NCBI RefSeq assembly: GCF_900142765.1
Contig: NZ_FRCB01000008.1
Location: 62,001 to 126,000 of the forward strand
Reading direction: 5' to 3'
Length of the DNA stretch: 64,000 nt
Source of the DNA: Roseovarius litoreus
Lineage (GTDB): Bacteria; Pseudomonadota; Alphaproteobacteria; Rhodobacterales; Rhodobacteraceae
A program made the translations under genes and the position numbers. The notes beneath the pieces are model-generated. The model did not search any database. It saw nothing but the letters and a program-made list of their open reading frames with translations, and was not told the origin of the DNA. Positions 50,101-64,000 of the stretch are shown piece by piece. Position 1 is the stretch's first letter. Each line of letters starts with the position of its first letter.

Positions 50101-51238
50101 CGACAAGTGTATCATGGCCAGCGCCACCCTTCATGACGTCCGCGCCGTCATCGCCCGCTACAAAATCGTTACCGTCTCCGCCATTCATGTGGTCATCGCC
50201 ATCCTGGCCACCCATGAAGTCGTCGCCCGTGCCGCCGTCCATGAGGTCGTCGCCAGAGCCGCCGAGCATGTCGTCATTGCCGTCTTCGCCAAAAAGCCGG
50301 TCGTCGCCAGCGCCCGCACGCAGCGCGTCAGCATCCGCACCGCCCATCAGTTGGTCGTTGCCGTCACCCCCGACAAGGAAGTCCTTTCCCGTGCCGCCGC
50401 GCAGATCATCCGCGCCATCACCGCCGAACAGACGATCATCGCCCGCATCTCCGGAGATAAAATCGTTGCCGGTTCCACCCTCGATCTGGTCGTTGTCGTT
50501 GCCGCCACGGAGGTTGTCATTTCCTTCGCCACCAAGGATCGTGTCATGACCCGCGTTGCCTTCGATATATTCGTCACCGACACCGCCATCGATGAAGTCA
50601 TTGCCATCGCCACCGCGCAGGTTGTCATTGCCCTCCCCGCCGAGGATCGTGTCGTTCCCCGCGTTGCCTTCGATGTAATCGTTACCGACGCCGCCATCGA
50701 CAAAGTCATTTCCGTCACCGGCTCGAATGTTGTCGTTGCCGCCGTTGCCAAGAATGTGGTCATCCCCATTGGTGATCATGTCACCTTGAGCGTCGGCATA
50801 ATGCAGCGGCATGAACTCGCCCGTGTCGGCCCCGTCGACCACACCATCCGGCAGCGACTGAAACTGGTAGCCAGCGTCGACCTCGGTTTTGCTTTCGCCC
50901 GCCTGCAGGTGGATCGGATCGGTCAGACCGGAATCAACATTTGCATCGCTGTCCTCTCTGAAGCCACCGATGTCTTTGTCAGCCAATGTCAAATCATTGA
51001 TCCGGCTGGGGAACTGCACGAAGTAGTCCCCACTTGCCAGATGCGTGAACGAATAGAACCCGTTATGATCGGTATGGGTTGCTTGGATGACATTACCATG
51101 TGCATCGAGCAGCTGAACGAGCTGTCCGTCCAGCCCGGCTTCGAAGCCGCCCGAGGCTGAGAACTCGGTATTGTCTGCATTGCTGTCTGAGAAGACTCGA
51201 CCGCCGATAACGGCAGTCTTGGGATCGAAAAAGGTCAA
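47114..51238 (-). CDS. large RTX-type calcium-binding secreted protein
   Basis: A 1374-residue protein. Residues about 8-127 form an SdrD-like B domain (I-G-G-R-V-F-S-D-S-N; G-L-D-G-Q-L-V-Q-L-L-D; G-F-Y-S-F-T). Then come dozens of G-G-x-G-x-D-x-x nonapeptide RTX repeats, interrupted by a non-RTX module (F-D-N-P-F-V-D-N-E-D-P-T-T-D-G) present three times, then a cadherin/VCBS-like domain (N-A-A-P-V-A-V-D-D) and more RTX. The last 30 residues are a charged helix (E-E-R-A-F-E-E-M). Likely exported by a type I system, not in this window. TTG at 51238 follows AGGAG by eight bases; the frame is open to 51412. Confidence 0.88.
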   Translation of the reverse strand: MTFFDPKTAVIGGRVFSDSNADNTEFSASGGFEAGLDGQLVQLLDAHGNVIQATHTDHNGFYSFTHLASGDYFVQFPSRINDLTLADKDIGGFREDSDANVDSGLTDPIHLQAGESKTEVDAGYQFQSLPDGVVDGADTGEFMPLHYADAQGDMITNGDDHILGNGGNDNIRAGDGNDFVDGGVGNDYIEGNAGNDTILGGEGNDNLRGGDGNDFIDGGVGDEYIEGNAGHDTILGGEGNDNLRGGNDNDQIEGGTGNDFISGDAGDDRLFGGDGADDLRGGTGKDFLVGGDGNDQLMGGADADALRAGAGDDRLFGEDGNDDMLGGSGDDLMDGGTGDDFMGGQDGDDHMNGGDGNDFVAGDDGADVMKGGAGHDTLVGGAGADLIEGGAGDDLITFDNPFVDNEDPTTDGAGDMIFGGAEGALDNDTLDLRGAGKVTIDQQIDENDEGATKGTVTFADGSTLTFEGIETILSDGDGTVDGAETGEFMPVGYADAQGDVITEGDDRIFGNGGNDDIRSGGGDDFIDGGTGNDNIFGGTGNDFILAGDGDDVVRGREDDDYIDAGAGNDNIMGEEGDDALRGRAGDDFVAGGSGNDDILGEDGNDSLYGDTGDDFIGGGAGDDIVSDALEGFVGGGNDQFYGDDGNDTLLGGDGHDTLVGGADADRIEGGAGDDLITFDNPFVDNEDPTTDGAGDMIFGGAEGALDNDTLDLRGAGKVTIDQQIDENDEGATKGTVTFADGSTLTFEGIETILSDGDGTVDGAETGEFMPVGYADAQGDVITEGDDRIFGNGGNDDIRSGGGDDFIDGGTGNDNIFGGTGNDFILAGDGDDVVRGREDDDYIDAGAGNDNIMGEEGDDALRGRAGDDFVAGGSGNDDILGEDGNDSLYGDTGDDFIGGGAGDDIVSDALEGFVGGGNDQFYGDDGNDTLLGGDGHDTLVGGADADRIEGGAGDDLITFDNPFVDNEDPTTDGAGDMIFGGAEGALDNDTLDLRGAGKVTIDQQIDENDEGATKGTVTFADGSTLTFEGIETILSDGEVNAAPVAVDDAAVALEDGSVTIDVLSNDIDPEEDSLTVTQASAENGTVTVNDDNSLEYTPDPGFFGTDIITYEISDGFGNTDTGEVTVEVEEVPDAPVVDGTAGDDVLLSDFVDEDGDQIDGTDGLNDTIDAGAGNDFVDGGAGDDTFLDNAGNDVYFGNEGNDSYVSQDTGNVFVFVGEDGTGQVQNVTSGELDEVFSVETFVAGEDETGFDGIAFENAISEDDIATQLQGISDNAFGQFFPDAAPPVAFGPEVGLLLSDILGGAVGGSPVGNYLIEGGDEEGQIGEVSFENFEQIFFGVEMSTDREVEERAFEEMRMREELREEEEELDRMGFAM
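48132..50081. repeat. 840-bp tandem duplication inside the RTX gene
   Basis: Period 840 bp (280 codons): copy A 48132-48971, copy B 48972-49811, and a truncated copy C 49812-50081. A and B with flank are identical over about 860 bases as far as I can read; C differs at a handful of positions. Each full copy encodes the module F-D-N-P-F-V-D-N-E-D-P plus a block of RTX repeats. Confidence 0.93.
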
Positions 51239-51837
51239 CTTACACACTCCTACACAGGCGGTACCACCACCGCACTCATACCAATCCGGTTGCACCTGAC
51301 CTGATGCGACCGAACACGAATTCCGCTGCCAAACTCCGGCAAACGGACACAGAACCGCGGCTGACTGATCGTCAGAGGGCAGGCATCGTCTTGTGCGCCT
51401 TTTCAGACGCAAAACACCTCATGGTCCCTCCGAACCACTGCCATGCCATCCAGCCGGGCTTTTTGGGGCTGATTTTCAGCTGGGTTCGTTGATCCGGGAA
51501 AATTCGTGACAAATTTGGGTGGAAAGATGGCGAAAAAGGGATCGGGGGATTGGGGCTTTTGGCGCGCTCGGCTAACAAGATCGACGGGAGGTGGAGCACT
51601 ACCCTTGGTTGCGCGAAATAATTGGCTATATATATGTTTTATAACGTTTTTTTACGTATTCGGGGGCTGCATTTAGCGGCGGCGCAAGGGGTCGGTCCGG
51701 ATTATTTCCATATCAAGGACGCACGGTTTCCGGGGCGATTTCAAGGGTTTTTCGGCTGCGCACCCAGACCCGGGCACCGCCAAATACTCGCCTGAATTGT
51801 GTAAGATTTGTACAAAATTGTCGCCAGGTTGTACCAA
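51239..51837. other. intergenic region between RTX and fpr genes
   Basis: 599 bases without a convincing gene. From the RTX start outwards: the AGGAG site, then a Cys-containing open stretch to 51412 that I do not think is translated, then an AT-rich island at about 51616-51660 with TATATATATG and a run of seven T, probably carrying the RTX promoter. A TTTGTACAAA palindrome is at 51807-51816 and a short copy of the dispersed GGCGAGTATTTGG motif (reverse strand) at 51780-51792. Confidence 0.55.
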
Positions 51838-52647
51838 TCAATCCACGAAAGCACGCTCGACCACATAGGTTCCGGGCACGCTGTTGGAGCCTTCTTCCAG
51901 ACCGACCGCCTCGCAAAGGGATTTGCCGTCGCGCAGCATCTCCATCGAGCCGCAGATCATCACCCGGTCCTTCGCCGGATCGAGCGCTGGCAAGTCGAGG
52001 TCGTCGAACACACGGCCCGATGTGATCGCATCGGTCACCCGGAGACGGCGGGGGTGGTCTTCGCGGGTGACGCAGGTGTAGTGCCGCAACCGGTCGGCGG
52101 CCAGTTCGCCCACCAGCGGATCGTCTTGCGTGGCGGCCACCAGCTGTTCGCCATAGGTCAGCTCGGCCTGCTGGCGGCACCCATGCATCAGAACGACCGT
52201 TTCGAATTTCTCATAGGTTTCCGGATCACGGACCAGGCTGGCGAACGGTGCGATGCCGGTGCCGGTCGAGAGCATGTAGAGCCTGCGCCCGGGCAAAAGC
52301 GCATCGAGAACGAGCGTGCCTGTGGGTTTCTTGCGCATCAGAACTGTATCGCCCGGTGTGATCCGTTGCAGATGTTCGGTCAGCGGACCGTCCGGCACCT
52401 TGATCGAATAGAATTCCAGGCTGTCATCCCAGGCGGGCGACGCGATGGAATAGGCGCGAAAGACCGGGCGTTCGGCATTCGGCAGACCGATCATCACGAA
52501 TTCGCCCGAACGAAACCGAAAGCTGGTCGGACGCGTCATGCGAAAGCGAAACAGACGGTCGGTGTAATGTTCGACCTCGGTCACGGTTTCGGCGAAGCAA
52601 TTGGCGGGAACAGGCGGCATGGGGGCGGTTGCGGAGTGAACTGTCAT
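51838..52647 (-). CDS. fpr: ferredoxin/flavodoxin-NADP reductase
   Basis: A 269-residue FAD enzyme passing electrons between NADPH and ferredoxin or flavodoxin. R-A-Y-S-I-A-S-P binds FAD, S-T-G-T-G-I-A-P-F is the NADP phosphate loop, V-M-I-C-G-S-M-E-M the nicotinamide region, and the C-terminus ends V-V-E-R-A-F-V-D, usual for bacterial subclass I Fpr. Start at 52647 follows AAAGGA. It lies just downstream of the MarR gene but has its own upstream region with a motif shared with the amidohydrolase unit; it could feed the ring reductase, which is inference. Confidence 0.93.
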   Translation of the reverse strand: MTVHSATAPMPPVPANCFAETVTEVEHYTDRLFRFRMTRPTSFRFRSGEFVMIGLPNAERPVFRAYSIASPAWDDSLEFYSIKVPDGPLTEHLQRITPGDTVLMRKKPTGTLVLDALLPGRRLYMLSTGTGIAPFASLVRDPETYEKFETVVLMHGCRQQAELTYGEQLVAATQDDPLVGELAADRLRHYTCVTREDHPRRLRVTDAITSGRVFDDLDLPALDPAKDRVMICGSMEMLRDGKSLCEAVGLEEGSNSVPGTYVVERAFVD

Positions 52648-52690
52648 CGGGGCGTCCTTTGAAACTCGGTCCACAAAGGGTAGCAATTTT

Positions 52691-52708
52691 TTGTTTGTAT
52701 GCGAACAA
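52691..52708. promoter_or_regulatory. candidate operator upstream of fpr
   Basis: TTGTTTGTATGCGAACAA, an imperfect palindrome, 44 bases before the fpr start. Its first 11 bases recur exactly at 55047-55057 upstream of the amidohydrolase gene. A MarR-type regulator is encoded between the two. Confidence 0.45.
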
Positions 52709-52772
52709 CTTTTCGACGGGAAAAACGCTTTCCCAATGGGCCGCTTCAGCACGGTCGCAAATGCCGAAAAAT

Positions 52773-53246
52773 TCAGCCGATCTTGCGCAGAAGCCGCTGG
52801 AGGGTTGTCTGTTCGCTGCGTGTCAGGGGGGCAAGGGTCAGGCGGGTGATCTCGGTGGCCAGGGGCAGGACCCGATCATGCACGCGCCACCCTTCGGGGG
52901 TGAGGCGCAGCATGTGCAGACGGTGATCTTCCTCGGAGGGGAACTTTTCGATCAGGCCGCGCTGCGTCAGACGACGCACGACACCGTTGATGGTCGAGTT
53001 GTCCATGGCCGTCTGCCGCCCGAGAGAGTTTTGCGACGACGGCTCAACCTCGGCCAGCTTGACCAGTGCTGCGAATTGCTGAGCGGTGAGCCCTTCGCCC
53101 ATATGTGCGGTGAAGATGCTGAGGTGACGCTGTTGCGCCTTGCGCAAAAGAAACCCCGCCTGCGTGTCCAGCACATAGCGACGGCGCACACGTTTCGTGG
53201 TTGCGTCGTCGTCATGGACCTCGTTTGAAGGCTCGCTCCGGGTCAA
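52773..53246 (-). CDS. MarR-family transcriptional regulator
   Basis: A 157-residue winged-helix regulator. The central part (L-T-A-Q-Q-F-A-A-L-V-K-L; D-N-S-T-I-N-G-V-V-R-R-L-T-Q-R-G-L-I-E-K; D-H-R-L-H-M-L-R-L-T-P-E-G) is the MarR DNA-binding and wing region. The start is TTG at 53246, eight bases after AAGGA; no in-frame ATG is suitable. It follows the DUF1185 gene by 18 bases, so it is the last gene of the catabolic unit and probably senses a pathway compound. The N-terminus carries an extra charged segment (D-D-D-A-T-T-K-R-V-R-R-R). Confidence 0.88.
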   Translation of the reverse strand: MTRSEPSNEVHDDDATTKRVRRRYVLDTQAGFLLRKAQQRHLSIFTAHMGEGLTAQQFAALVKLAEVEPSSQNSLGRQTAMDNSTINGVVRRLTQRGLIEKFPSEEDHRLHMLRLTPEGWRVHDRVLPLATEITRLTLAPLTRSEQTTLQRLLRKIG

Positions 53247-53264
53247 AATGCGGGTCCTTTCAGG

Positions 53265-53849
53265 TCAGCGTAACCCGTCTTTGCCGATCGCCTCGGCAGC
53301 TGTCAACCCGCCAACCCGGGGCAAGGGACGCCCGCTATCGGTGACGGCAACGGCGACCATGATCTCGTTCGCGCGCGGCGCATCGTTCAAACGCACCTCG
53401 ATCCCATCGAAATGGCTGCGCACATAGGCCGCGTCCTTGTGGCCAAGCGGCACGTCAAGCGGCTGGCCGGGACCCCCCATCTTTTTCGATGATGGCACAA
53501 GCGCCGCCCCCTTTTCGACCGCGGCCCGAAGGGGCGCGCCCAGCTTTGGATGCAGGATCGCGGCGGCATGTTCCAACTCGCCGTTTTCGCCGACCATCGC
53601 GGCCTTGCCATAGCTTTCGGCCTCGGCTGGCGTGATCCCCAAAGCCTCGACGCAGCGCCGGCCCAGAAGGTCACCAAGTTCGGCGCCGATATCCATCAGG
53701 ATCTCGAGATCCGCCTCGAAGCGGCCCGCAAAGGGGTTTTCGATGACCGCCACCGCGGCGGCGCGGCGCGTCGGCGGCGCGATGGTCTGGCCCATTTCAA
53801 TGTGGGTTTCGTCAAGAAAGACAGCAATCTTGCGGATTTTCGCCTGCAT
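53265..53849 (-). CDS. DUF1185 (amino acid synthesis family) protein, copy 1
   Basis: A 194-residue protein of the AA_synth/DUF1185 family. Conserved phrases: V-I-E-N-P-F-A-G-R, S-Y-G-K, G-E-L-E-H, V-P-S-S-K-K-M-G-G-P-G, Y-V-R-S-H-F-D and D-A-P-R-A. These are shared almost word for word with a second copy at 58108-58692, so the two are paralogues in one locus. The biochemical role is not established. Lies 12 bases after the amidohydrolase gene. Confidence 0.87.
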   Translation of the reverse strand: MQAKIRKIAVFLDETHIEMGQTIAPPTRRAAAVAVIENPFAGRFEADLEILMDIGAELGDLLGRRCVEALGITPAEAESYGKAAMVGENGELEHAAAILHPKLGAPLRAAVEKGAALVPSSKKMGGPGQPLDVPLGHKDAAYVRSHFDGIEVRLNDAPRANEIMVAVAVTDSGRPLPRVGGLTAAEAIGKDGLR

Positions 53850-53861
53850 TTTCGTGCTCCT

Positions 53862-55031
53862 TCAGATGACCGGCACGCGGGCCGAAGGCGGGGTCGAGCG
53901 CGAGCGCCCGGTGCGCATCTTGCCGTCGATCATGACGGCGGCGATGCCGGGGATGTTGCCCATGGCCATAGCACCCAGAACGTCGTCACCCGGCGAGCCG
54001 CCGGGCCGGTCCATGAAGACCAGATCCGCCGGGCGACCAGGCGCGAGGATGCCCTGGCTCAGTCCGCGCCGATGGGCCACGTTGCCGCTGCCGCAGCACC
54101 ACGCAAGCTCGGCCGGCAGGCCCCCGAAGCTGGCCAGAAGGGTTGCCATGCGCAACATGCCGTTGGGCTGGACACCCGATCCGGCGGGCGCATCGGTGCC
54201 GATCAGGAAATCGGCGAGCCGGTCATTCGCCATCGCCCCTTCGAGCGCGACGATGGCGGATTTCTCGTTGCCATTGTGCACCGCCTCGAGCGCGCCGGTG
54301 GCATGGCGGCACAACTCGCGGATATCGTCATGCGGGATGGAGGTGGGACCGCCATTGATGTGGCTCACGATATCGGGCTGCGCCTCGAGCACATCTGCCG
54401 CGCCGACCAGATGCGAGCCGGCAATCGACGGCCCGCCGGTATGCATGATCGTCTCGATGCCCAACTCACGGCACCATGCGGTGACGCGGGCGGCGTCCGG
54501 CCCCTTGGCGACGGTGCCAAGGCCGATCTCGCCGATATGGCGGATACCGGCATCTTTCAGGGCGACATAGAAGTCGCGGTCAAAGTCCAGTTCGGGCACT
54601 GGGGCGCCCGCGATGACCTTGGCGCCAACGGCGCGGAAATTGGTGAAACAGCGCTGTGCGACCATCGCCAGCGCCTTGACGCCTTCGGCATCCTTGGGGC
54701 GGCCCGGCAGGTGCACTTCGCCTGCAGAAATGAAGGTGGTGACGCCGCCGTTCACGTTCATCTCGATCCAGCCGGTCTGGTTCTGGCGGGGGGTCCAGTC
54801 GCCGAAGACCGGGTGGCAATGGCCGTCGATCAACCCCGGAGCCACGGCGCACCCGGCGGCGTCGATCTCGTGATCGGCGGGTTCGGCGGTGAAGCCCGCG
54901 ATCACACCATCCTCGATCAGAAGGCAGTCGCTATCGGCCAGAGGGGCGTTCAGATCGCCGGTGAGCAAGCGGCCGATATTGCGGATCAGGCAGCGGCCCG
55001 TGGCCGGAGTGTCCTTGGTTTCAACAGCCAT
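53862..55031 (-). CDS. enamidase-type amidohydrolase
   Basis: A 389-residue cyclic amidohydrolase. I-D-G-H-C-H-P has metal ligands His71 and His73; later H-T-G-G-P-S, H-I-N-G-G-P-T and L-I-G-T-D-A-P-A-G-S-G (metal Asp) follow. The overall pattern resembles enamidase of nicotinate fermentation, which hydrolyses 6-oxo-tetrahydronicotinate to an open-chain formylglutarate. The assignment rests on this resemblance and on the neighbouring 6-hydroxynicotinate reductase-like gene. It begins a separate cluster (amidohydrolase, DUF1185, marR) after a 76-base gap. Confidence 0.8.
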   Translation of the reverse strand: MAVETKDTPATGRCLIRNIGRLLTGDLNAPLADSDCLLIEDGVIAGFTAEPADHEIDAAGCAVAPGLIDGHCHPVFGDWTPRQNQTGWIEMNVNGGVTTFISAGEVHLPGRPKDAEGVKALAMVAQRCFTNFRAVGAKVIAGAPVPELDFDRDFYVALKDAGIRHIGEIGLGTVAKGPDAARVTAWCRELGIETIMHTGGPSIAGSHLVGAADVLEAQPDIVSHINGGPTSIPHDDIRELCRHATGALEAVHNGNEKSAIVALEGAMANDRLADFLIGTDAPAGSGVQPNGMLRMATLLASFGGLPAELAWCCGSGNVAHRRGLSQGILAPGRPADLVFMDRPGGSPGDDVLGAMAMGNIPGIAAVMIDGKMRTGRSRSTPPSARVPVI

Positions 55032-55046
55032 TCAAAATCCCCGATC

Positions 55047-55064
55047 TTGTTTGTATGGAAACGA
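55047..55064. promoter_or_regulatory. candidate operator upstream of the amidohydrolase gene
   Basis: TTGTTTGTATGGAAACGA; the first 11 bases are identical to the element upstream of fpr (52691-52701), and GTTT/AAAC arms make it weakly palindromic. It lies 16 bases before the amidohydrolase start, a position suited to repression. Confidence 0.45.
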
Positions 55065-55107
55065 TACTGCGCAGCTTTTGAGCTGACAAGCCCGTTGGGA
55101 GGCGCGG

Positions 55108-56367
55108 CTAGAGCAGGGCAAGGCTGAACCATGGGACCAGTGCGAGAACCAACAGCGCAAGGCAGGCCGCCAGAAAGAAGGGCGCGGTCACCCAGAACAC
55201 CCGAAGCGGGCTGACATTGCTGACCTGGGCTGCCACGTAAAGGCCGATGCCTACCGGTGGCGACAGCAACCCGAGGATCAGGTTGATCGAGACGACGACC
55301 CCGAAATGCAAAGGGTGGATGCCGTAGACATCCGTCGCGATCGGCAGCAGGATCGGCACCACCATGATGAGCCCCGGAATGCCGTCGATCACCGTGCCCA
55401 CCACCAGCAGCGCCACAAGCACCAGCAGCATGAAGGCCATGGGCGTTGTGGCAACGGACTGAATCCAGGCCGCGGCGGTCTGCGGCACCTGCCCGAAGAT
55501 CAGCACCCAGGAGAACACCCCCGCCGCCGCCACGAGAAACAGCACCAGCGCGCTGTTGATCCCGGTGCGGATCAGGATCAGGGGGAAATCACGCAGCCGG
55601 AGCGAGCGGGTATAAAAGAGGCCGATCAGCACGGCGAGGACAGCGCCGACGGCGGCGGCCTCGGTCGGAGAGCCGAAGCCGCCCAAGATGGTGCCGATGA
55701 TCACCAGAGGAATGGCCAGCATCGGCAAGGCATTGCGCAGCGCGGCGAAGCGCGCGGGCCATGTCTGTCGCGTGCCGACCGGATAGGCGTGTTTGCGGCC
55801 CAGAAGGGCCACGACCAGAATAAAGAGGCCGGTGAGCATCAGGCCCGGCAGGATGCCCGCCACCAGCATGTCACGCACGGCCACCTGCGCCAGCACGGCA
55901 TAGACCACGAAGACGATCGAGGGCGGGATGATCGGCCCCAGAAGCCCGCCATAGGCCGTGAGGCCGGCGGCGAAGGCGCGATCATAGCCTGCGCGCTGCA
56001 TCTCGGGGACCATCACCTGGCTCATCATGGCGATCTGTGCCGTGGCGGACCCAAGGATCGACGCCACCATCATGTTGGCCAGAAGGTTGATATAGGCCAG
56101 CCCACCCTTGAGCGCCCCGACAAAGGCCGCCGCCAGCTGGACCAGCCGCTGCGTGATGCCCGCCCCGTTCATCAGCTCGCCCACCAGAATGAAGAGCGGG
56201 ATGGCCAGAAGGCTGAAATTGTCGAGCGACGTGAACAGCTTGAGCGGATAGCTTTGCAGGAGAATGAGGTTGTTCGTGTCGTAGATGAAAACCAGTGCCG
56301 CCACGCACAGGATCAATCCGATCGGCAAGCCGATCACCAGAAGCAGCAGGAAAGCGACCAGCGTCAT
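55108..56367 (-). CDS. dctM: TRAP transporter large permease (DctM)
   Basis: A 419-residue membrane protein with about twelve helices, the ion-coupled channel subunit of a TRAP transporter. G-S-A-T-A-Q-I-A, G-P-I-I-P-P-S-I and P-V-G-I-G-L-Y are the usual DctM landmarks. Its start overlaps the small-subunit gene by four bases. Encoded within the heterocycle locus, so it presumably imports the substrate, likely a carboxylate, with sodium. Confidence 0.94.
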   Translation of the reverse strand: MTLVAFLLLLVIGLPIGLILCVAALVFIYDTNNLILLQSYPLKLFTSLDNFSLLAIPLFILVGELMNGAGITQRLVQLAAAFVGALKGGLAYINLLANMMVASILGSATAQIAMMSQVMVPEMQRAGYDRAFAAGLTAYGGLLGPIIPPSIVFVVYAVLAQVAVRDMLVAGILPGLMLTGLFILVVALLGRKHAYPVGTRQTWPARFAALRNALPMLAIPLVIIGTILGGFGSPTEAAAVGAVLAVLIGLFYTRSLRLRDFPLILIRTGINSALVLFLVAAAGVFSWVLIFGQVPQTAAAWIQSVATTPMAFMLLVLVALLVVGTVIDGIPGLIMVVPILLPIATDVYGIHPLHFGVVVSINLILGLLSPPVGIGLYVAAQVSNVSPLRVFWVTAPFFLAACLALLVLALVPWFSLALL

Positions 56368-56972
56368 CGGGACGTCTCCGGGAGGGGAACATCGTCCTCG
56401 GACGGATCGAGTTCACGGGCGAGATTGCGTTGCGGGATCAGGCCCAGATCCTCGGCCAGATTGGTGAGCGCGTGAACGGTCAGCGTCAGAGCGAACCACG
56501 GCATCACGAGATAGAACCAGAACACCGGCCAGACCAGCACGGGTGTTTTGCCGGAATAGATGAAGTTGAAGGTCGTGCCTTCGAATGTCGAGATGTCGAA
56601 ACCGGCGGCAACAAGTCCAGGCGGATTGAACCATATCCAGTTGAGCCAGATGAGGATAATGCCGAAGACGGACGCCAGCACCGAGACGGACACCCGAAGC
56701 GCGCGCACGCCGAGCGGGCCAACCGCCTCATGCAGCAGGCGGACGGCCGGATCGATGCGAGCCCGCAGCATCAACGAGGCCCCCACGAAGCCGGACCATG
56801 CCATCGCCAGCACGGCCAGCTCATCCGCCCATGCCAGAGTGATCTCGAAAAGGCGGAACCCCACGTTCAAGAGAACAAGAGAGATGACCGCAAAGACAAG
56901 CAGCATCAACAGAATGCGCTCGATCCGGACAATGCCATCGGACAGGGCGCGCAACAGGCGTATCAGCGGCAT
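56364..56972 (-). CDS. dctQ: TRAP transporter small permease (DctQ)
   Basis: A 202-residue protein with four membrane helices; W-A-D-E-L-A-V-L-A-M-A-W-S-G-F-V-G-A is the family signature of DctQ. It sits between the binding protein and the large permease, separated from the former by a 74-base gap that contains a strong hairpin. C-terminal tail is acidic and polar. Confidence 0.92.
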   Translation of the reverse strand: MPLIRLLRALSDGIVRIERILLMLLVFAVISLVLLNVGFRLFEITLAWADELAVLAMAWSGFVGASLMLRARIDPAVRLLHEAVGPLGVRALRVSVSVLASVFGIILIWLNWIWFNPPGLVAAGFDISTFEGTTFNFIYSGKTPVLVWPVFWFYLVMPWFALTLTVHALTNLAEDLGLIPQRNLARELDPSEDDVPLPETSR

Positions 56973-57003
56973 GCGGTTCTTCCTTGGGTCTCGGGGTATT
57001 TGC

Positions 57004-57032
57004 GGTGGCGCGGCATGACCGGCCGCACCACC
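57004..57032 (-). promoter_or_regulatory. intercistronic hairpin between dctP and dctQ
   Basis: Arms 57004-57014 and 57022-57032 form 10 of 11 pairs around a 7-base loop, 15 bases after the dctP stop. No T-run follows. It likely protects the 3' end of dctP mRNA or partly attenuates transcription, giving excess binding protein. Confidence 0.6.
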
Positions 57033-57046
57033 CGGGTTTTACCAGA

Positions 57047-58024
57047 TCAGAACGAGGCGACCAGCTCGCGCAGGCGGGCGACATAGGAGGTCTTGGCCCC
57101 CCATTCGGCATCCCAACGCTCGACGATATCGCCAAAGAAGTCCTGACCCACATCCTCGGTGATCTGGATGCCCGACACTTCACGCAGGCTGGCCAGCTTT
57201 TTATCTTCTTCCGCCACGAAACGGTCGATGGTGCGGTCGCAATGCATCTGCGTCACCTCGCTGATCAGGGCGCGATCCTCTTCGGAGAGCGTTGCCCAGA
57301 CCGGCGCCGAAATCAGGGCCACCATGCCGAACATATGGTGGTTGGTCTCGAGGATATGCGGCGCATGTTCGTAGTAGCGGAAGTTGATGATGGATTCGTA
57401 ATCCATGTCCAGCCCGTCGATCTGACCATTGGCGAGCGAGTCGTAGATCGCCGGAAGCGGCATCGGCGCGGGCGCGGCGCCGAACATCTCGAAGAAGGTG
57501 CTGATCGCCGGGGCGGGCGTGATCCGGATCCGCTTGCCGGCAAGATCGGCGGCGGAGTCGATATTCTCGCGCATAACCATCTGGCGCATCCCGATCATCG
57601 CATAGCAGACGCCGACCGTGCCGGTGGCTGCGGGCAGCGTGTCGAGGATCTCGCGCGCCTCGTCCGAGCGCAGGACACGCGCGGCATCTTCGATATTATC
57701 CACGAGGAAGGGGGCGTGCAGCGCGGCCATGTCCGGCACGCGGAAGGTCAGCTCGGCGGTGGTGAGCCACGCCATGTCGAGCGCCCCGGTTTGCAATTGC
57801 TGCAGCATGGCGGATTCGTTGCCCAGCTGGCCCGAGGGGAAGGCGGTGATCGAAAAACGCCCATCCGACCGCTCCTTGAGCGTTTCGGACATCGCGTCCA
57901 CCTCCTTGTTCCAGACATGCACCGGGGGCGTGATCAGCCCCAGACGGAATTCACGCTCTTGTGCCATGGCCGGCAAGGCCAGCCCAAGCGCCACAACTGT
58001 TGCCATCATCGGCTTCAAAAACAT
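57047..58024 (-). CDS. dctP: TRAP transporter substrate-binding protein (DctP)
   Basis: A 325-residue periplasmic binding protein with signal peptide (1-21, ending A-M-A). R-L-G-L-I-T-P-P-V-H-V-W-N-K opens the mature domain, and G-K-R-I-R-I-T-P-A-P with A-N-G-Q-I-D-G-L-D-M carry the usual Arg that holds a substrate carboxylate. The ligand is unknown, but the locus suggests an aromatic or reduced N-heterocyclic carboxylate. Bracketed by hairpins at 57004-57032 and 58056-58076. Confidence 0.92.
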   Translation of the reverse strand: MFLKPMMATVVALGLALPAMAQEREFRLGLITPPVHVWNKEVDAMSETLKERSDGRFSITAFPSGQLGNESAMLQQLQTGALDMAWLTTAELTFRVPDMAALHAPFLVDNIEDAARVLRSDEAREILDTLPAATGTVGVCYAMIGMRQMVMRENIDSAADLAGKRIRITPAPAISTFFEMFGAAPAPMPLPAIYDSLANGQIDGLDMDYESIINFRYYEHAPHILETNHHMFGMVALISAPVWATLSEEDRALISEVTQMHCDRTIDRFVAEEDKKLASLREVSGIQITEDVGQDFFGDIVERWDAEWGAKTSYVARLRELVASF

Positions 58025-58055
58025 TCTCGATCTCCCTATCGGTTACTTGTTCAAG

Positions 58056-58076
58056 CCCGGAGTTTTCGTCTCCGGG
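58056..58076 (-). promoter_or_regulatory. hairpin upstream of dctP
   Basis: CCCGGAG (58056-58062) pairs perfectly with CTCCGGG (58070-58076) over a 7-base loop, in the 83-base gap between the DUF1185 gene and dctP. Could be a 5' stabilising stem or a terminator remnant; no T-run. Confidence 0.5.
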
Positions 58077-58107
58077 TCGGTATGGCGGCGCGGTCCGCGC
58101 CAGCATT

Positions 58108-58692
58108 CTATCGCAATCCATCCCTTCCCTCTATGTCGGCGGCGGCAAGGCCTCCGACACGCGCATGTATGCGAGGCCCGGTCGTCATGACCAGTATCAA
58201 GGCCAGTTCAGCAGCACGAGGCGCATCGGTCAGCCCGACTTCCATTGCGTCGAAATGACTGCGCACATAAGAGGCGTTCACATGGGTGATCGGCACATCA
58301 AGCCGGGTGCCCGGCCCGCCCACCTTCTTGGTGGAGGGCACGATCGCCATCGCATCGCCCAGGACTTCGCGCATCGCCCATCCCCCCGGCACATGCCAAA
58401 GCGCGCCATGCTCCAACTCGCCCGCGGCGCCGACGATGGCGCCCTTGCCATAGCCCTGCACCTGCGCGGGATCGCCGCCAAGGGCGTCGAGCATCCGGCG
58501 GGCCATCGCCTCGCCCAAGGGTTTGAGCGTGTCCATGAAGGGCGCGATGTCGGGCTCGTAGCGACCGGCGAAGGGGTTTTCGATGACCGACACCATGGCG
58601 ACCCGGCGCAGAGGCACAGACGCGGGAGGGCCGAATTCGTGAAAGATCTCTTCGGTCAGGAGCGCCTGTTTGCGCAAGGTGAGATCAGGCAT
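58108..58692 (-). CDS. DUF1185 (amino acid synthesis family) protein, copy 2
   Basis: A 194-residue paralogue of the protein at 53265-53849, sharing V-I-E-N-P-F-A-G-R, G-Y-G-K, G-E-L-E-H, V-P-S-T-K-K-V-G-G-P-G, Y-V-R-S-H-F-D and R-V-G-G-L. Start at 58692 (MPDLTLRKQ) overlaps the UPF0280 gene by eight bases. Two diverged copies in one locus suggest either a heteromeric protein or two related reactions. Confidence 0.86.
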   Translation of the reverse strand: MPDLTLRKQALLTEEIFHEFGPPASVPLRRVAMVSVIENPFAGRYEPDIAPFMDTLKPLGEAMARRMLDALGGDPAQVQGYGKGAIVGAAGELEHGALWHVPGGWAMREVLGDAMAIVPSTKKVGGPGTRLDVPITHVNASYVRSHFDAMEVGLTDAPRAAELALILVMTTGPRIHARVGGLAAADIEGRDGLR

Positions 58693-59584
58693 GTGCAAGC
58701 GCCTCCCTGTTAGGCTGTGAAATAGTCGCGAATAGCGGCAGATCGCCGACAACACGCGCGGTGCCCTGAAGAACGATGAGCGCGCCGCCGATCAGGCCGC
58801 GCGCCAGCATCGAGCGGGCCGCCGTCTCTCCCGCGTCGAGGGCGGCCGAAATCCGGTCAGGCGAGAGCGGGGCGACATGCTGCGTCACAAGCCGCGCCCC
58901 CAGATCGCTGTCGGGCGACAGAACATGCGCCGGAGCACGGGTCACGGCCGCATCGCCGGGCAGATCAACGGCATTGGCGATGAGCGTTGCCGCCGCATCG
59001 GCGGATTCCGCATCACGGGCGAGCACGGTGACACTGTCGGCGATGCCCATCGAATGGCTGCGCCCCCGCGCGCCGCTGGTGGCCACCCCGCGCCATGGGG
59101 TTTGAGGCCCGATCATGATCCGCCCCGGTGACGCGGGTGCTGAGGGATCCACCACGACGCCAAGCCTGTAAGGAGCTGCCCCTTGCGCCAGAAAGAGTGC
59201 GATATCGCCCCCGTTATTGACATAGGCGCGCACTAGCCCCGGAACGTCGGTCATCGCCGCAAGAATGGCCGAAGCCCCGGCCCCGGCCACAGCCGCCATG
59301 GGCGTGACGAAAGTGGGCAGATGGGCGCGCGCGGCACGCGCCATGGCGCGCGCCACCCGGCCTTGCAAAGGGCACTCGGGCAAGGGCCTGACGGGTTGGC
59401 GCAAAAGCGGCAGTTCGGACACAAGCTCGGACAGGAGGCTGTCGAAGCGGGTGATGGCCTGGCCATAGGCGGTCCGGACTGAGGATGCCGGGCCGTCTGC
59501 TTGCACGATCATGTCGATCGGCCCGTGCTGCAGATGCAGCCGCCCGTCGGCAAGGTGCCGGTGGAAAGGGCCTGCGCCGGTCAT
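58685..59584 (-). CDS. UPF0280 / ApbE-like protein
   Basis: A 299-residue protein of the UPF0280 family, structurally related to the flavin transferase ApbE. M-A-A-V-A-G-A-G-A-S-A-I-L (about 97-109), Y-V-N-N-G-G-D-I-A-L-F-L and G-R-S-H-S-M-G-I-A-D-S-V-T-V match the family. Role unknown; flavin handling for the ring reductase is a possible inference. The start overlaps the reductase stop (ATGA) and the end overlaps the DUF1185 gene. Confidence 0.83.
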   Translation of the reverse strand: MTGAGPFHRHLADGRLHLQHGPIDMIVQADGPASSVRTAYGQAITRFDSLLSELVSELPLLRQPVRPLPECPLQGRVARAMARAARAHLPTFVTPMAAVAGAGASAILAAMTDVPGLVRAYVNNGGDIALFLAQGAAPYRLGVVVDPSAPASPGRIMIGPQTPWRGVATSGARGRSHSMGIADSVTVLARDAESADAAATLIANAVDLPGDAAVTRAPAHVLSPDSDLGARLVTQHVAPLSPDRISAALDAGETAARSMLARGLIGGALIVLQGTARVVGDLPLFATISQPNREALAHA

Positions 59585-61104
59585 TCGGTGGTCCAGCCGA
59601 AGCGGTGAGGCAGCACCGGCCAGCGTGCGGGATCGCTTGCGCGGCCAAGATGGCGCAGCCCGCCCTGCGCCACCCCGGTCACGTCATCCAGCGCACGGAC
59701 CGACTCCATATGGCCGCCAAGGGCCGCGTAATCAGACAGGCGCAGGGTGAATTCGATCGGAGCGACAAGTGCGGGGGTGGGTACGTAGCCGAAGGAGTTT
59801 TCCGGCATCTGCATCACGTCGACCATGTAGGTGATCCCGCCACCCGGCCAGATATAGACCTCGGCACCGCCGGAGGTGACATGGGTGAGGGTCTCGCGCA
59901 CCGAGCGGGTCAGCTTGACCGGGTTTTCCGTGACCCCGGCCCGGAGCGATCCGCCCGCGCCACCGATGAACACCACCGAACAGAGCGCGGGTTCGCAATT
60001 TTCCTGCACACGGGCCACCGAGGCTGCGACAGGATCGGGCATCGGTATGGGAACGGGCTGCAGATCGGCGTCGAGCTCGTAATAGGCGGCGTGATCGCCT
60101 GTGGTCGAGACCATCAGCATCCGCAGTCCCGGCCATGCGGTCTTGGCGTCGAAGCGGTCGATGATCGACAGGGGATCGACGATGTCGGTGCCGCCCCAGC
60201 CCTGCCCCGGTTCGGCGACGCGGAAATAGCGGCCCGGGGTGCTTTTGTGGCCCTTGATGCGAATACCCGTGGGCGGCACGTCGAGAAGCTTGCCGGCCTG
60301 ATGCTCGGAGAGAACCCCGGTGATATGGTCGTCCACGACAACCACCTCGTCGAGATGGCGGAACCATTGCTGGGCGAACATCCCGATGGCCGCCGATCCG
60401 CAACCGACGCGCATCCGCTCTTCGCGCTCGCCGTCGATCACGGGCGGCTTGCCGGCCTCGACCACGAGGCTGACACCGTCATCCACGGTCAGTTCCACCG
60501 CCTGACGGTTGCACAGGTGAAGCAACGCCTCGCAGGTGGCGCGGCCCTCTTTCTTGCTGCCTCCGGTGAGGTGATGCACCCCCCCGAGGCTCATCATCTG
60601 GCTGCCGTATTCCGCCGTGCTGACATGGCCCACCACTTCGCCGTTATAGCGCACCGAGGCGGTTTCGGGTCCAAGATGGCGGTCGGTGTCGATCTTGAGC
60701 TTGACGCCGCAATAGGAAAAAATGCCTTCGGTGACCACGGTCACCATGTCGATGCCATCCATCTGGCTCGAGACGATGAAGGGTGCGGGCTTGTAATCGG
60801 GATAGGTGGTGCCTGCGCCCACAGCGGTCACGAAACGGTCCGAGGTGTTGACGATCTCGCCGCCCCAGTCGCGGCCGTTATCAAGAAAGCTGACCAGCTC
60901 ACCACCATCGGAGGCCATGCGATCAAGGATCACCAGAGGATCGACGCGGGTCAGAATCCCATCGACATTGGCGTAGCGATCACAGGCGCCGGCCCGCCCT
61001 TCGGCGATGTAGCACAGGACAGGACAGGCATCGCAGCGGATCTTTTCGGGCTTCTCGCGGCGCGGACGGCCCGAGACGGGCGGGGGTGCGGGCGTGTCAC
61101 TCAT
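59581..61104 (-). CDS. hnr: 6-hydroxynicotinate reductase-family protein
   Basis: A 507-residue protein resembling 6-hydroxynicotinate reductase (Hnr), the ferredoxin-dependent ring reductase of nicotinate fermentation in Eubacterium barkeri. Near the N-terminus Cys24, 27, 31 and 41 (C-x2-C-x3-C) suggest an Fe-S cluster; G-S-A-A-I-G-M-F and G-G-A-G-G-S-L-R-A-G-V-T-E-N-P-V are conserved phrases. The true substrate here is unknown: nicotinate derivatives are the best guess. It lies between the molybdenum hydroxylase and the UPF0280 gene, coupled to the latter. Confidence 0.82.
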   Translation of the reverse strand: MSDTPAPPPVSGRPRREKPEKIRCDACPVLCYIAEGRAGACDRYANVDGILTRVDPLVILDRMASDGGELVSFLDNGRDWGGEIVNTSDRFVTAVGAGTTYPDYKPAPFIVSSQMDGIDMVTVVTEGIFSYCGVKLKIDTDRHLGPETASVRYNGEVVGHVSTAEYGSQMMSLGGVHHLTGGSKKEGRATCEALLHLCNRQAVELTVDDGVSLVVEAGKPPVIDGEREERMRVGCGSAAIGMFAQQWFRHLDEVVVVDDHITGVLSEHQAGKLLDVPPTGIRIKGHKSTPGRYFRVAEPGQGWGGTDIVDPLSIIDRFDAKTAWPGLRMLMVSTTGDHAAYYELDADLQPVPIPMPDPVAASVARVQENCEPALCSVVFIGGAGGSLRAGVTENPVKLTRSVRETLTHVTSGGAEVYIWPGGGITYMVDVMQMPENSFGYVPTPALVAPIEFTLRLSDYAALGGHMESVRALDDVTGVAQGGLRHLGRASDPARWPVLPHRFGWTTE

Positions 61105-61111
61105 GCTGCCC

Positions 61112-63886
61112 TCATCTTCTGGCGGACTGCAGGGCGCGCAGCACCTTGTCAGGTGTCGCCGGCATATCGCGGACCACGGCGCCGGTCGCGTCGCGCAGTG
61201 CGTTCAGGATCGCGGGCGCGGTGGGAATCAGCACCTGCTCGCCGATCCCCTTGGCGCCGAACGGGCCATGCGCGTCCGGGTCCTCGATCAGGATCGATTC
61301 CACTCGGGGCACATCGCCCACGGTCGGGATCAGGTAATCATGCAGGTTCTCGGTGCGCCCGGGAATGAACTCTTCCATCAGGGCAAGCCCGATCCCCTGG
61401 GCCGATCCGCCCTCGATCTGGCCTTCGAGAAGCGTCGGGTTGATCGCGCGGCCCACGTCATGCGCGCAGACCAGATCGCGGACGCGGATGGTGCCCAGTT
61501 CGATATCGACGTCGATTTCCGCAAGATGCGCGCCCCAGCCATAGGCGGCATAGGGTTCGCCCTGTCCGTTTTCATCAAGCGGCGAGGTGGGCGGATCGAA
61601 GGTTTCCTCGGCCATCAGCACATAGCCGAAGGCGTTTTCCTGACCCGCCAGCGTCGCCAGATCGAAGGCCGCAGAACCGGCGGAAATCACGCTGCCGGCA
61701 AGCTGCAATTGCGCGTCATCGCCCGCATTGAGCCTGCGCAAGAGCTGCGCCCTGAGCGCCGCCCCGGCCCTGAGCGATGCCGCCCCCGAAACGAAAGTCT
61801 GCCGCGAAGCGGATGTCTTGCCCGCATCGGGCGTCAGATCGGTATCGGCGCCCACCAGCGTGAAGGCCGAGACCGGCAGGCCAAGCGCCTCGGCACAGAT
61901 CTGGGTGATGACCGTGTTGGCCCCCTGCCCGATATCCATTGCGCCCTGATGCAGAACCAGTGTGCCATCGGCCTTGATGCCAACGCGGATCGTGGACGGA
62001 TTGGGCAGCGAGGTGTTGCCGCAGCCATACCACATGCCCGCAACACCGACACCGCGCCGCAGCGCGCCGCCTTCGGCACTTTGCGCCGCATTGAACGCAG
62101 CCGCCGCCGCGCGCCTTTCGGCCCATGCAGGGCGCAGAGCTTCGAGACAGGCGCGGATCCCGACACCTTGGGAAAAGACCTGTCCGGTCACCGTAGGTTG
62201 ACCTGTCTGCAAGGCGTTCCGGATGCGAAACTCGAGCCGGTCATGGCCCAGCGCATCGGCAAGCTCGTCAAAAAGCGCCTCTTGCGCGATGGAGCCTTGC
62301 GGGACACCGAAGCCGCGGAAGGCACCCGCCGGCGCGCAATGGCTGTGAATGGCTGCGGCGCGCGCCTCGTAGGCGGGCAGAAAATAGGGGCCGGATGCAT
62401 GGACCGGCACCCGGTTCGCCACGGTCGGCCCCCAGGACGCATAGGCGCCCGTGTTGAAACTTGCCGCAACCGTCATGCCCAGCAACCGGCCTTCGGCATC
62501 GGCGCCGATGCGCGCGGTGATCTGCGACGGGTGCCTTTTGGTGGTCGTCATCATCGAGTCCCGGCGGCTATAGACCATGCCGCAGGGTGCGCCCGTGACC
62601 CAGGCCGCCAGCGCGAGATAGGGCTGAAGTGAAAGATCCAGCTTGGCCCCGAAGCCCCCGCCGACCGAAGAAGGCAGGATGCGGATCGCCTCGCGCGGCA
62701 GGTCCATGATGAGCGCCAGATCCTCGAGGTCCATATGCGGCGCCTGCGTGCAGGCCCAAACCTCGATCCGGTTTCCGACGCGGCGGGCATAGCCTGCTTC
62801 GGGTTCGATATAGGCGTGTTCGATGAAGCCGGTGGTAAAGGTGGCCTCGACCACCGCCGCCGCTTCCTTGAGGGCGTCTTCGGGCGCACCGCGCCGCACG
62901 AAGCCTTCGGTCAGCAGGTTGCCGGGCCGCCCCTCATGCAGCACCGGCGCCCCTTCGGCGCGGGCCGAGGGAATATCGAGCACGGCAGGCCGTTCCTCCC
63001 ATGTCACGGGGAAGTGACACAGATCGAGACGCTCGACCACATCGTGCGGGCCGATGATGGCGGCGACCGGCTCTCCCTTGAAGCGCGCGACATGCTCGGC
63101 GAAGACGGGCTGATCGGCGAAGGGCGGAATGACGCCGTGGCAGTTGCGACCGGGAATATCCGCTGCGGTCAGGACTGCGTGCAGATCCGGGTGGGCCGCG
63201 CGCCAAGCCGCGATATCGCCGAAGGAGAAGCCCGCATGGTGATGCGGGCTGCGCACCAGACGCACCGCCAGCGTCCCCTCGGGCCAGCCATCCGCCCCGA
63301 AAAGATCGGTCCCGAGAACCTTGGGCAATCCATCGAGCCGCTCGATCCGCGCGCCCACGGCCCCATCGGGCGGGGTGACATCCGCGCCGCCGCAATCCAT
63401 GACGGCGGAAACGATCTTGCTGTAACCGGTGCAGCGACACAGGACGCCCGACAGCGCCTCTTCGACCTCTGGCCGGGTCGGTTGCGGCACACGACGCAGC
63501 AAGCCTTCGGCCGCCATAAGCATCCCCGGCGTACAGATGCCGCATTGTGCCGCGCCGTGGCGCTGAAACGCGCGCTGCAGTTTGCCCGGCACACCGCTGG
63601 ACGGGGCAAGCGCCTTGACCGTCTCGACCACGCGACCCTCGGCGCGAGCGGCAGGCATGAGGCAGGCACAGATCGGCGCACCATCCAACAGCACCGTACA
63701 GGCGCCGCAATCGCCCGCATCGCACCCCACCTTGATCTCTTCGCAGTCAAAGGTATCGCGCAAGGCCGCACTCAGCCGTGCCGCGGGGGCAACGACGCCC
63801 TCGCGCGGCGCGCCGTTGAGGGTCAGGGACAGGGTAATCCGATTGTCCGTGTCAGCGACGGGCGTCGCGGGGGCGATCCTGTTCAT
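61112..63886 (-). CDS. molybdenum hydroxylase: 2Fe-2S and Mo-binding subunits fused
   Basis: A 924-residue xanthine dehydrogenase-family protein. Residues 18-160 are the small subunit with both 2Fe-2S clusters (C55, C60, C63, C75; C115, C118, C150, C152). From about 175 the large molybdopterin subunit follows, with S-V-G-G-G-F-G-A-K, G-A-F-R-G-F-G-V-P-Q, D-I-G-Q-G and the catalytic Glu883 in G-A-K-G-I-G-E-Q. It hydroxylates a heteroaromatic ring next to N, as nicotinate dehydrogenase does. AGGAG stands seven bases before the start. The FAD subunit is the gene at the window edge. Confidence 0.9.
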   Translation of the reverse strand: MNRIAPATPVADTDNRITLSLTLNGAPREGVVAPAARLSAALRDTFDCEEIKVGCDAGDCGACTVLLDGAPICACLMPAARAEGRVVETVKALAPSSGVPGKLQRAFQRHGAAQCGICTPGMLMAAEGLLRRVPQPTRPEVEEALSGVLCRCTGYSKIVSAVMDCGGADVTPPDGAVGARIERLDGLPKVLGTDLFGADGWPEGTLAVRLVRSPHHHAGFSFGDIAAWRAAHPDLHAVLTAADIPGRNCHGVIPPFADQPVFAEHVARFKGEPVAAIIGPHDVVERLDLCHFPVTWEERPAVLDIPSARAEGAPVLHEGRPGNLLTEGFVRRGAPEDALKEAAAVVEATFTTGFIEHAYIEPEAGYARRVGNRIEVWACTQAPHMDLEDLALIMDLPREAIRILPSSVGGGFGAKLDLSLQPYLALAAWVTGAPCGMVYSRRDSMMTTTKRHPSQITARIGADAEGRLLGMTVAASFNTGAYASWGPTVANRVPVHASGPYFLPAYEARAAAIHSHCAPAGAFRGFGVPQGSIAQEALFDELADALGHDRLEFRIRNALQTGQPTVTGQVFSQGVGIRACLEALRPAWAERRAAAAAFNAAQSAEGGALRRGVGVAGMWYGCGNTSLPNPSTIRVGIKADGTLVLHQGAMDIGQGANTVITQICAEALGLPVSAFTLVGADTDLTPDAGKTSASRQTFVSGAASLRAGAALRAQLLRRLNAGDDAQLQLAGSVISAGSAAFDLATLAGQENAFGYVLMAEETFDPPTSPLDENGQGEPYAAYGWGAHLAEIDVDIELGTIRVRDLVCAHDVGRAINPTLLEGQIEGGSAQGIGLALMEEFIPGRTENLHDYLIPTVGDVPRVESILIEDPDAHGPFGAKGIGEQVLIPTAPAILNALRDATGAVVRDMPATPDKVLRALQSARR

Positions 63887-63901
63887 CGGCGCTCTCCTGT
63901 C

Positions 63902-64000
63902 TCAGGGGTCCATGCAGCGCGCAAGCGCCCTGCGCACAAGCACCGGCACAACCGCTTCGCGATAGGCCGCCTCGCCCCGCACATCGGTGATTGGGGTCAG
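63902..64000 (-). CDS. FAD-binding subunit of the molybdenum hydroxylase (C-terminal part)
   Basis: The last 32 codons of a gene entering from the right edge: L-T-P-I-T-D-V-R-G-E-A-A-Y-R-E-A-V-V-P-V followed by L-V-R-R-A-L. P-I-[ST]-D-V-R-G-[ST]-A-x-Y-R is the usual end of CoxM/XdhB-type FAD subunits. It lies 15 bases before the start of the fused Fe-S/Mo gene, completing the three-module hydroxylase and marking the operon as starting outside the window. Confidence 0.8.
   Translation of the reverse strand: MTPITDVRGEAAYREAVVPVLVRRALARCMDP

Follow-up and report, generated by a model that had tools for sequence, protein, structure and literature searches.

UPF0280 accompanies the ring reductase Hnr in a probable nicotinate degradation operon of Roseovarius litoreus

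The operon and its predicted chemistry

We analysed a window of 64,000 nucleotides of the Roseovarius litoreus genome (3.93 Mb, 99.96% complete), positions 62001-126000 of the 183-kb contig NZ_FRCB01000008.1. Towards its end the window carries a minus-strand operon that very probably serves nicotinate catabolism by the reductive route, with a molybdenum (Mo) hydroxylase, a ring reductase of the Hnr family (6-hydroxynicotinate reductase), an enamidase and uptake by a TRAP transporter. The most valuable result, and our strongest lead, is the dependency between Hnr and its neighbour UPF0280 (COG2122), a family for which no stated biochemical activity was found in the portions of the literature searched. 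The hydroxylase, Hnr-family, enamidase and TRAP assignments are supported by homology; the substrate, the electron path, the roles of UPF0280 and DUF1185 and the regulation are what we infer from them and from context.

In the proposed pathway, the TRAP importer would take up the carboxylate, and the Mo hydroxylase, composed of a separate flavin adenine dinucleotide (FAD) subunit and a fused 2Fe-2S/Mo chain, would convert nicotinate to 6-hydroxynicotinate. This product would then be reduced in its ring by Hnr, giving 1,4,5,6-tetrahydro-6-oxonicotinate; NADPH probably supplies the electrons through the ferredoxin-NADP reductase (FNR) of the operon and a ferredoxin. The enamidase would open the ring with release of ammonia, yielding 2-formylglutarate. 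UPF0280 most likely serves the maturation of Hnr, perhaps through attachment of the flavin, the DUF1185 proteins probably act on, or aid with, the enamine or aldehyde product, and a MarR protein would regulate the operon.

The genes follow one another on the minus strand in the order FAD subunit, fused 2Fe-2S/Mo chain, Hnr, UPF0280, DUF1185, TRAP P-Q-M, enamidase, DUF1185, MarR and FNR. With the start codons chosen in this analysis, the intergenic gaps range from -8 to 83 bases, and this close packing suggests a single transcription unit some 13 kb long. An earlier note on this DNA, made from the sequence alone, had placed the locus at 52773..64000. All the open reading frames (ORFs) that it named are there, on the minus strand, and fall into the families it gave. 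Of the FAD-subunit gene, however, no more than the last 99 bases are within the window, and both ends of the operon had been missed: the FNR gene (51838-52752), just below the lower boundary, probably also belongs to it, and the FAD-subunit ORF reaches 64810 at most (L003:13903-14811).

The hydroxylase is a single chain of 924 residues (61112..63886, minus strand) with a Fer2_2 domain and both Mo-cofactor domains (PF01799, PF02738, PF20256), and would correspond to NdhS, NdhL and NdhM of the Eubacterium barkeri nicotinate dehydrogenase combined. This predicted nicotinate 6-hydroxylase thus holds the 2Fe-2S, L and M parts in one polypeptide, unlike the E. barkeri enzyme, whose Mo domain is split into subunits L and M. 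Selenium at the Mo site, another trait of the E. barkeri enzyme, is not encoded in the polypeptide. The adjoining gene, whose 3' end occupies 63902..64000 on the minus strand, encodes the NdhF-like FAD subunit; extension of the sequence past 64000 completed it (PF00941, E 2.1e-44; PF03450, E 3.6e-14). The NCBIfam scan of the fused chain matched 20 models, none at its cut-off. With the C-terminal 325 residues as query, the best PDB match is 3hrd_B, subunit M of the E. barkeri dehydrogenase (E 3e-61, 41% identity, 210 bits vs 138 for the next PDB match). The full chain scores highest with the aldehyde oxidoreductase 1dgj; in that comparison the Mo part of the E. barkeri enzyme is distributed over two chains, which lowers its score. 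Tyr620 corresponds to Tyr13 of E. barkeri NdhM (Tyr13M), and a Tyr is found at this position in all 38 aligned fused hydroxylases, including that of the window. In the available portion of PMC5746545, Tyr13M is modelled as binding the ring nitrogen of nicotinate.

As for the enamidase (53862..55031, minus strand), this amidohydrolase of 389 residues has the E. barkeri enamidase 2vun as its best PDB match (E 1.2e-93; runner-up, E 7e-5), with 43% identity over 374 residues. Six residues compared at the metal site are kept, H71, H73, E168, H197, H224 and D280 standing for H67, H69, E164, H193, H220 and D276 of 2vun, which we take to be the ligands of the binuclear metal centre.

For the ring reductase (59581..61104, minus strand), the searches of Pfam, NCBIfam and PDB gave no family match at the thresholds applied; weak GCV_T_C matches were seen in 15 of 16 Hnr members (best E 0.0045). 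Cys24, Cys27, Cys31, Cys41, Cys132, Cys235 and Cys370 are invariant in 50 aligned sequences, that of the window included; the first four form the motif that had already been pointed out. The E. barkeri Hnr reportedly (Alhapel 2006) contains two 4Fe-4S clusters and one 2Fe-2S cluster besides a covalently bound flavin. Seven invariant Cys are fewer than such clusters would need if all their ligands were Cys.

We compared the reductase with the best 80 of at least 591 stretches from named genomes that encode an Hnr relative; 26 of the 80 have shorter flanks. Identities to these 80 relatives range from 65 to 95%, the closest being that of a Roseovarius metagenome bin (L067, 95%). Hnr is one tight family, as near-complete open matches are at least 62% identical, and a 50% match, in G014, has five stops. 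In one further genome the Hnr match falls into two overlapping pieces (G310:C1:2969823-2971252), while its UPF0280 match has no stop. Among public plasmids, 26 records hold relatives with 62-71% identity, of which 17 are named 6-hydroxynicotinate reductase, three are called hypothetical protein and six have no annotation there.

The three-step chemistry of hydroxylation, ring reduction and enamidase hydrolysis that the earlier note had proposed is borne out by the 2vun and 3hrd_B matches, the conserved Tyr13M and the annotation of Hnr relatives. Its presence in a respiring alphaproteobacterium is not new: a reductive nicotinate route has been described in Azorhizobium, as stated in an excerpt of PMC9304392, a nicotinate cluster of Azorhizobium caulinodans and Bradyrhizobiaceae is in print (PMC3511419, likewise an excerpt), and Hnr relatives already bear the name in 17 of 26 plasmid records. 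The route is still labelled anaerobic in the part at hand of a recent paper. Hnr matches are present in 104 of 295 genomes sampled from the same bacterial family, the Rhodobacteraceae, one of which (G136) is a weak match of 61 residues that we take as chance, and in 32 of 398 genomes across the phylum. The Hnr family occurs in roughly one third of the genera sampled (103/294), which makes nicotinate a likely carbon and nitrogen source for many Rhodobacteraceae.

UPF0280 and Hnr

The UPF0280 gene (58685..59584, minus strand; NF003322, E 1.4e-104, 349 bits for a cut-off of 290) encodes a member of the ApbE superfamily and a predicted maturation partner of Hnr. In the Rhodobacteraceae sample, UPF0280 was found in 103 of the 295 genomes and together with Hnr in 102. 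UPF0280 directly follows Hnr in 99 of these 102, with -15 to 221 bases between match ends; of the remaining three genomes, two have the genes on separate contigs and the third, G010, has them about 4 kb from each other. Hnr without UPF0280 was seen twice, as a truncated match in a genome that is 82% complete (G008) and as the weak G136 match, and UPF0280 without Hnr once, as a fragment at a contig start (G155). Across the phylum, both were found in the same 32 of 398 genomes, the lists being compared by reading, with two further weak UPF0280 matches below the cut-off in genomes lacking Hnr. The two samples overlap in a few genomes, and the genomes are related, so that the Fisher value calculated for the co-occurrence is not an independent probability. 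Among the 80 named loci, UPF0280 starts at most 350 bases after Hnr in 76. The genomes of three loci in which it was not counted (L104, L123 and L130) nevertheless carry it, with one in-frame stop in L104 and in two pieces in L130. As for the plasmids, Hnr occurs in 26 and UPF0280 in 27 of 72,556 records, and all 26 Hnr records have UPF0280 (again compared by reading). One Hydrogenophaga plasmid has UPF0280 without an Hnr match (L182:7935-8867); the gene is flanked there by copies of IS1071 and by repeated genes for Rieske proteins and tripartite tricarboxylate transporters. The UPF0280 model also gives sub-cut-off matches in two methanogen control genomes, indicating that relatives exist outside the Hnr setting.

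The predicted structure of UPF0280, with a predicted local distance difference test score (pLDDT) of 92, best matches DVU1097 (2o34). The 29 Foldseek matches at E<=0.001 comprise 2o34 and chains of the flavin transferases ApbE, FmnB and Ftp; the template modelling scores to ApbE are a modest 0.3-0.5, with large root-mean-square deviations. With a threshold of E<=10, 30 of 43 UPF0280 members match PF02424; the best value is 2e-6, and the window protein has 0.068. In addition, hhalign of UPF0280 against ApbE gave 92.9% over 105 columns. In addition to the fold, UPF0280 shares the GGD, TSG and ADAxxT motifs with these transferases, and GGD and the ApbE-type Asp and Thr of ADAxxT are invariant in the family alignment. 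In contrast, the HxxDP segment of the transferases is absent; as the aligned sequences of 6nxi and 6nxj (H257G) show, this segment contains the histidine altered in the Vibrio cholerae mutant, H257. HxxDP is present, at whatever position, in 1 of 43 UPF0280 rows, and the stretch from TSG to VTV, which could be parsed in 37 rows (the other 6 of 43 did not fit the pattern), spans 12 residues in 36 of them and 17 in one. UPF0280 as an ordinary ApbE was rejected, since the histidine segment is missing.

Linkage to Hnr, fold and the reported covalent flavin of Hnr suggest that UPF0280 is most likely a maturation factor of Hnr. It is tempting to go further and to propose, tentatively, a dedicated maturase: as a degenerate ApbE, UPF0280 would attach the flavin covalently to Hnr without the catalytic histidine of ApbE, and would render the same service in DUF39-dependent homocysteine synthesis. 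If so, a single activity would account for a family known from two unrelated reductive pathways. The pairing with Hnr assigns UPF0280 a role that can be tested, and it may account for the way in which Hnr acquires its flavin.

Somewhat less probable, and in our view rather unlikely, is that UPF0280 is a structural subunit or an electron-transfer partner of Hnr. Such a protein would display the same adjacency and co-occurrence, and the loss of the ApbE histidine segment fits it too, as does the statement in the accessible text of PMC5764234 that the homology of COG2122 to ApbE stops short of the flavin-binding region. An electron carrier or subunit accords less well with the family alignment, in which no column has Cys in at least 90% of the rows, and in which the invariance of GGD and of the two ADAxxT residues suggests that a nucleotide or metal site has been kept. 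Last, it is most improbable that UPF0280 serves homocysteine synthesis here, as in Desulfovibrio and methanogens, and sits beside Hnr by accident: DUF39 (PF01837), its homocysteine partner according to the same text, is found in none of the 295 family genomes, R. litoreus included, but in three control genomes, and 102 of the 103 genomes with UPF0280 also have Hnr. In favour of such a role are the sub-cut-off matches in the two methanogens. This role was therefore rejected for the Rhodobacteraceae.

Substrate and the divergent enamidase

The substrate had been suggested earlier to be another N-heteroaromatic carboxylate; with Tyr13M kept, nicotinate itself is now the likeliest substrate of the hydroxylase and of the pathway. 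Genes next to Hnr in related loci point the same way. In Neorhizobium, nicB is annotated beside fpr, liv, MarR, hnr and hyuAB genes, and a cluster of the nicotinate phosphoribosyltransferase type, one member of which was scanned and exceeded its NCBIfam cut-off, is present in 8 of the 80 loci.

A number of observations weigh against the nicotinate pathway as proposed. First, in the available portion of PMC5746545, Tyr13M is not conserved across all nicotinate hydroxylases and is not a strict marker, and Tyr620 therefore supports, without proving, nicotinate as substrate. Second, the window reductase is placed through relatives that public records name 6-hydroxynicotinate reductase, not through the E. 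barkeri Hnr itself (an excerpt of PMC3511419 gives a figure of 42% for the SG-6C homologue), and its predicted structure is poor (pLDDT 73) and has no PDB match at E<=0.001. Third, neither an enamidase nor a HyuA/HyuB-type gene was seen in 29 of the 80 loci, or in 12 of the 54 with full flanks. Fourth, no ferredoxin gene was identified among the operon proteins in the Pfam and NCBIfam scans made. Fifth, inspection of the 20 kb past the window brought up no hydroxymethylglutarate gene and no other gene for the steps after 2-formylglutarate; it relied on ORF lists, which for the more distant part gave the first 60 residues per ORF, and on Pfam scans of three proteins. Finally, the window enamidase sits on a long branch apart from other bacterial enamidases, and a changed substrate is possible.

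This last point bears on the idea, which we regard as improbable, that the same chemistry acts on another pyridine carboxylate (a substituted nicotinate, for example, or isonicotinate) and that the divergent enamidase and the TRAP importer are the parts adapted to it. In a tree of 43 enamidases, from which rows with fewer than 300 aligned residues were dropped, the window protein groups with those of L068-L071 in a separate clade (100/100), whose stem measures 1.47 changes per column; the E. barkeri enamidase is itself on a very long branch of the same tree. TRAP binding-protein genes occur in six of the 80 loci, among them all four with a divergent enamidase. The window clade retains 94 of the 129 positions at which E. 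barkeri agrees with 95% or more of the other bacterial enamidases. At 31 positions the clade is set apart from the other enamidases, and here E. barkeri sides with the others at 15, with neither at 7 and with the window clade at 9. The nine include both ends of the loop SHINGGP, which reads GHINGGH in at least 95% of the other enamidases. Tyr13M, modelled to bind the nicotinate ring nitrogen (PMC5746545, portion available), and an Hnr similarly conserved in loci with a divergent enamidase and in the other locus type also argue against another carboxylate. Altered enamidase specificity is a possibility in a clade that is long-branched, yet predicted to be E. barkeri-like at the metal site and in one active-site loop.

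Related loci and known systems

The E. barkeri nicotinate fermentation cluster (ndh, hnr, ena) and the operon are alike in the Tyr13M type of hydroxylase, the Hnr family and the enamidase metal-site residues. Unlike that cluster, the window has a fused hydroxylase chain, and the 20 kb beyond it revealed, in the ORF lists, no 2-hydroxymethylglutarate genes. In the operon these parts are joined by the TRAP importer, UPF0280 and DUF1185. The latter two had been regarded as new components; they are in fact regular members of these clusters, UPF0280 being present in 77 of the 80 named loci and at least one DUF1185 gene in 73. A MarR gene is found in 54 of the 80, an enamidase gene in 45, and FNR occurs in 29. 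When the 54 loci with complete flanks are taken alone, the counts are 52 for UPF0280, 51 for DUF1185, 36 for the enamidase, 6 for Hyu-type genes, 43 for MarR and 24 for FNR. The loci of Bradyrhizobium and Afipia resemble the window in having an Hnr that is 70-73% identical, UPF0280, DUF1185 and often MarR, enamidase and FNR; enamidases of loci of this type are 48-51% identical to that of the window, and the enamidase of L126, the relative from Afipia, shares 48% identity with 2vun.

The hydroxylase is fused in 37 and of the split type in 35 of the 80 loci (24 and 27 of the 54), the split type being judged by a weak Mo match. In a Bradyrhizobium locus (L086), the large chain of the split hydroxylase carries cytochrome c domains, as seen in the one protein scanned. 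TRAP P and M genes were both found in five of the 80 loci and in three of the 54. Clustering places an ABC-type gene cluster in 51 of the 80 loci, and 25 have a Liv-type binding protein; the one binding protein scanned matched below the NCBIfam cut-off. Unlike the window, the Azorhizobium caulinodans/Bradyrhizobiaceae cluster (PMC3511419) has a split-type hydroxylase, and its importer genes are of the ABC type, not TRAP.

A HyuA- or HyuB-type gene is found in six of the 80 loci (both in L076, L079, L105 and L142), never with an enamidase gene in the fetched flank, which suggests that these genes encode an alternative ring-opening enzyme. Two Hyu-type proteins of L076 were scanned and matched caprolactamase models below the cut-off. 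Hydantoinase A/B-type genes together with hnr, and no enamidase gene in the fetched stretch, were noted in Neorhizobium (L184:8965-16425), in Sagittula (L183:1-9846) and at L076:13842-17686. The parts of these pathways look exchangeable, with two types of hydroxylase, two types of importer and ring opening by an enamidase or by HyuA/HyuB-type proteins. What is unusual at the window locus is the TRAP importer in combination with the divergent enamidase clade.

DUF1185 proteins

Two of the four DUF1185 copies in the genome, divergent from each other, are in the operon. The DUFb type (58108..58692, minus strand; PF06684, E 2.4e-70; PDB 3byq, E 1.8e-60) follows UPF0280, and the DUFa type (53265..53849, minus strand; PF06684, E 1.5e-72) follows the enamidase gene; both belong to the DUF1185/AA_synth family. 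A third copy, on contig C2, lies between genes for an LLM monooxygenase and an alpha/beta hydrolase, in a row (L178:4639-9117) that also holds those for a flavin reductase and an aldehyde dehydrogenase, a composition resembling that of the trigonelline (tgn) genes. The fourth, on contig C3 (L177:7594-8142), is a lone DUF1185 gene adjoining, by eye, a pirin-like gene, and no nicotinate gene was recognised nearby.

The DUF1185 proteins BB2672 and SPO0826 and the trigonelline protein TgnF, cited as a homologue in the part of PMC7913881 at hand, belong to the same Pfam family as those of the window; unlike them, the operon holds two divergent copies together with Hnr. That text likens its own DUF1185-type protein to TgnF, said to stimulate aldehyde oxidation, an effect that was not reproduced there. 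An excerpt of PMC2954203 describes DUF1185 structures with a chorismate-mutase-like fold, hexamers and four conserved histidines, and a link to branched-chain amino-acid transport genes. We infer that this 'amino-acid' link may reflect Liv-type nicotinate importers. A role of DUF1185 on the enamine or aldehyde arising from the enamidase reaction is our guess.

Importer, regulator and neighbouring genes

The three importer genes, all on the minus strand, encode the DctP-type solute-binding protein (57047..58024; PF03480, E 2.5e-53), the small permease DctQ (56364..56972; PF04290, E 2.8e-13) and the large permease DctM (55108..56367; PF06808, E 7.8e-102). The MarR-family protein (52773..53246, minus strand; PF01047, E 6.6e-11) is probably the regulator of the operon, as a MarR gene is also found in most related loci (54/80).

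The FNR-like protein (51838..52752, minus strand; PF00175, PF00970) is a possible electron source for Hnr, and an FNR gene recurs in 29 of the 80 loci. It has a paralogue elsewhere in the same genome, 55% identical, and the operon copy is therefore likely a dedicated one. In Sagittula, the FNR gene adjoins hnr. Just below the operon, at 47114-51412, lies an ORF of 1432 residues with long repeated blocks and GGxGxDxx-like repeats, which we presume to be RTX-like.

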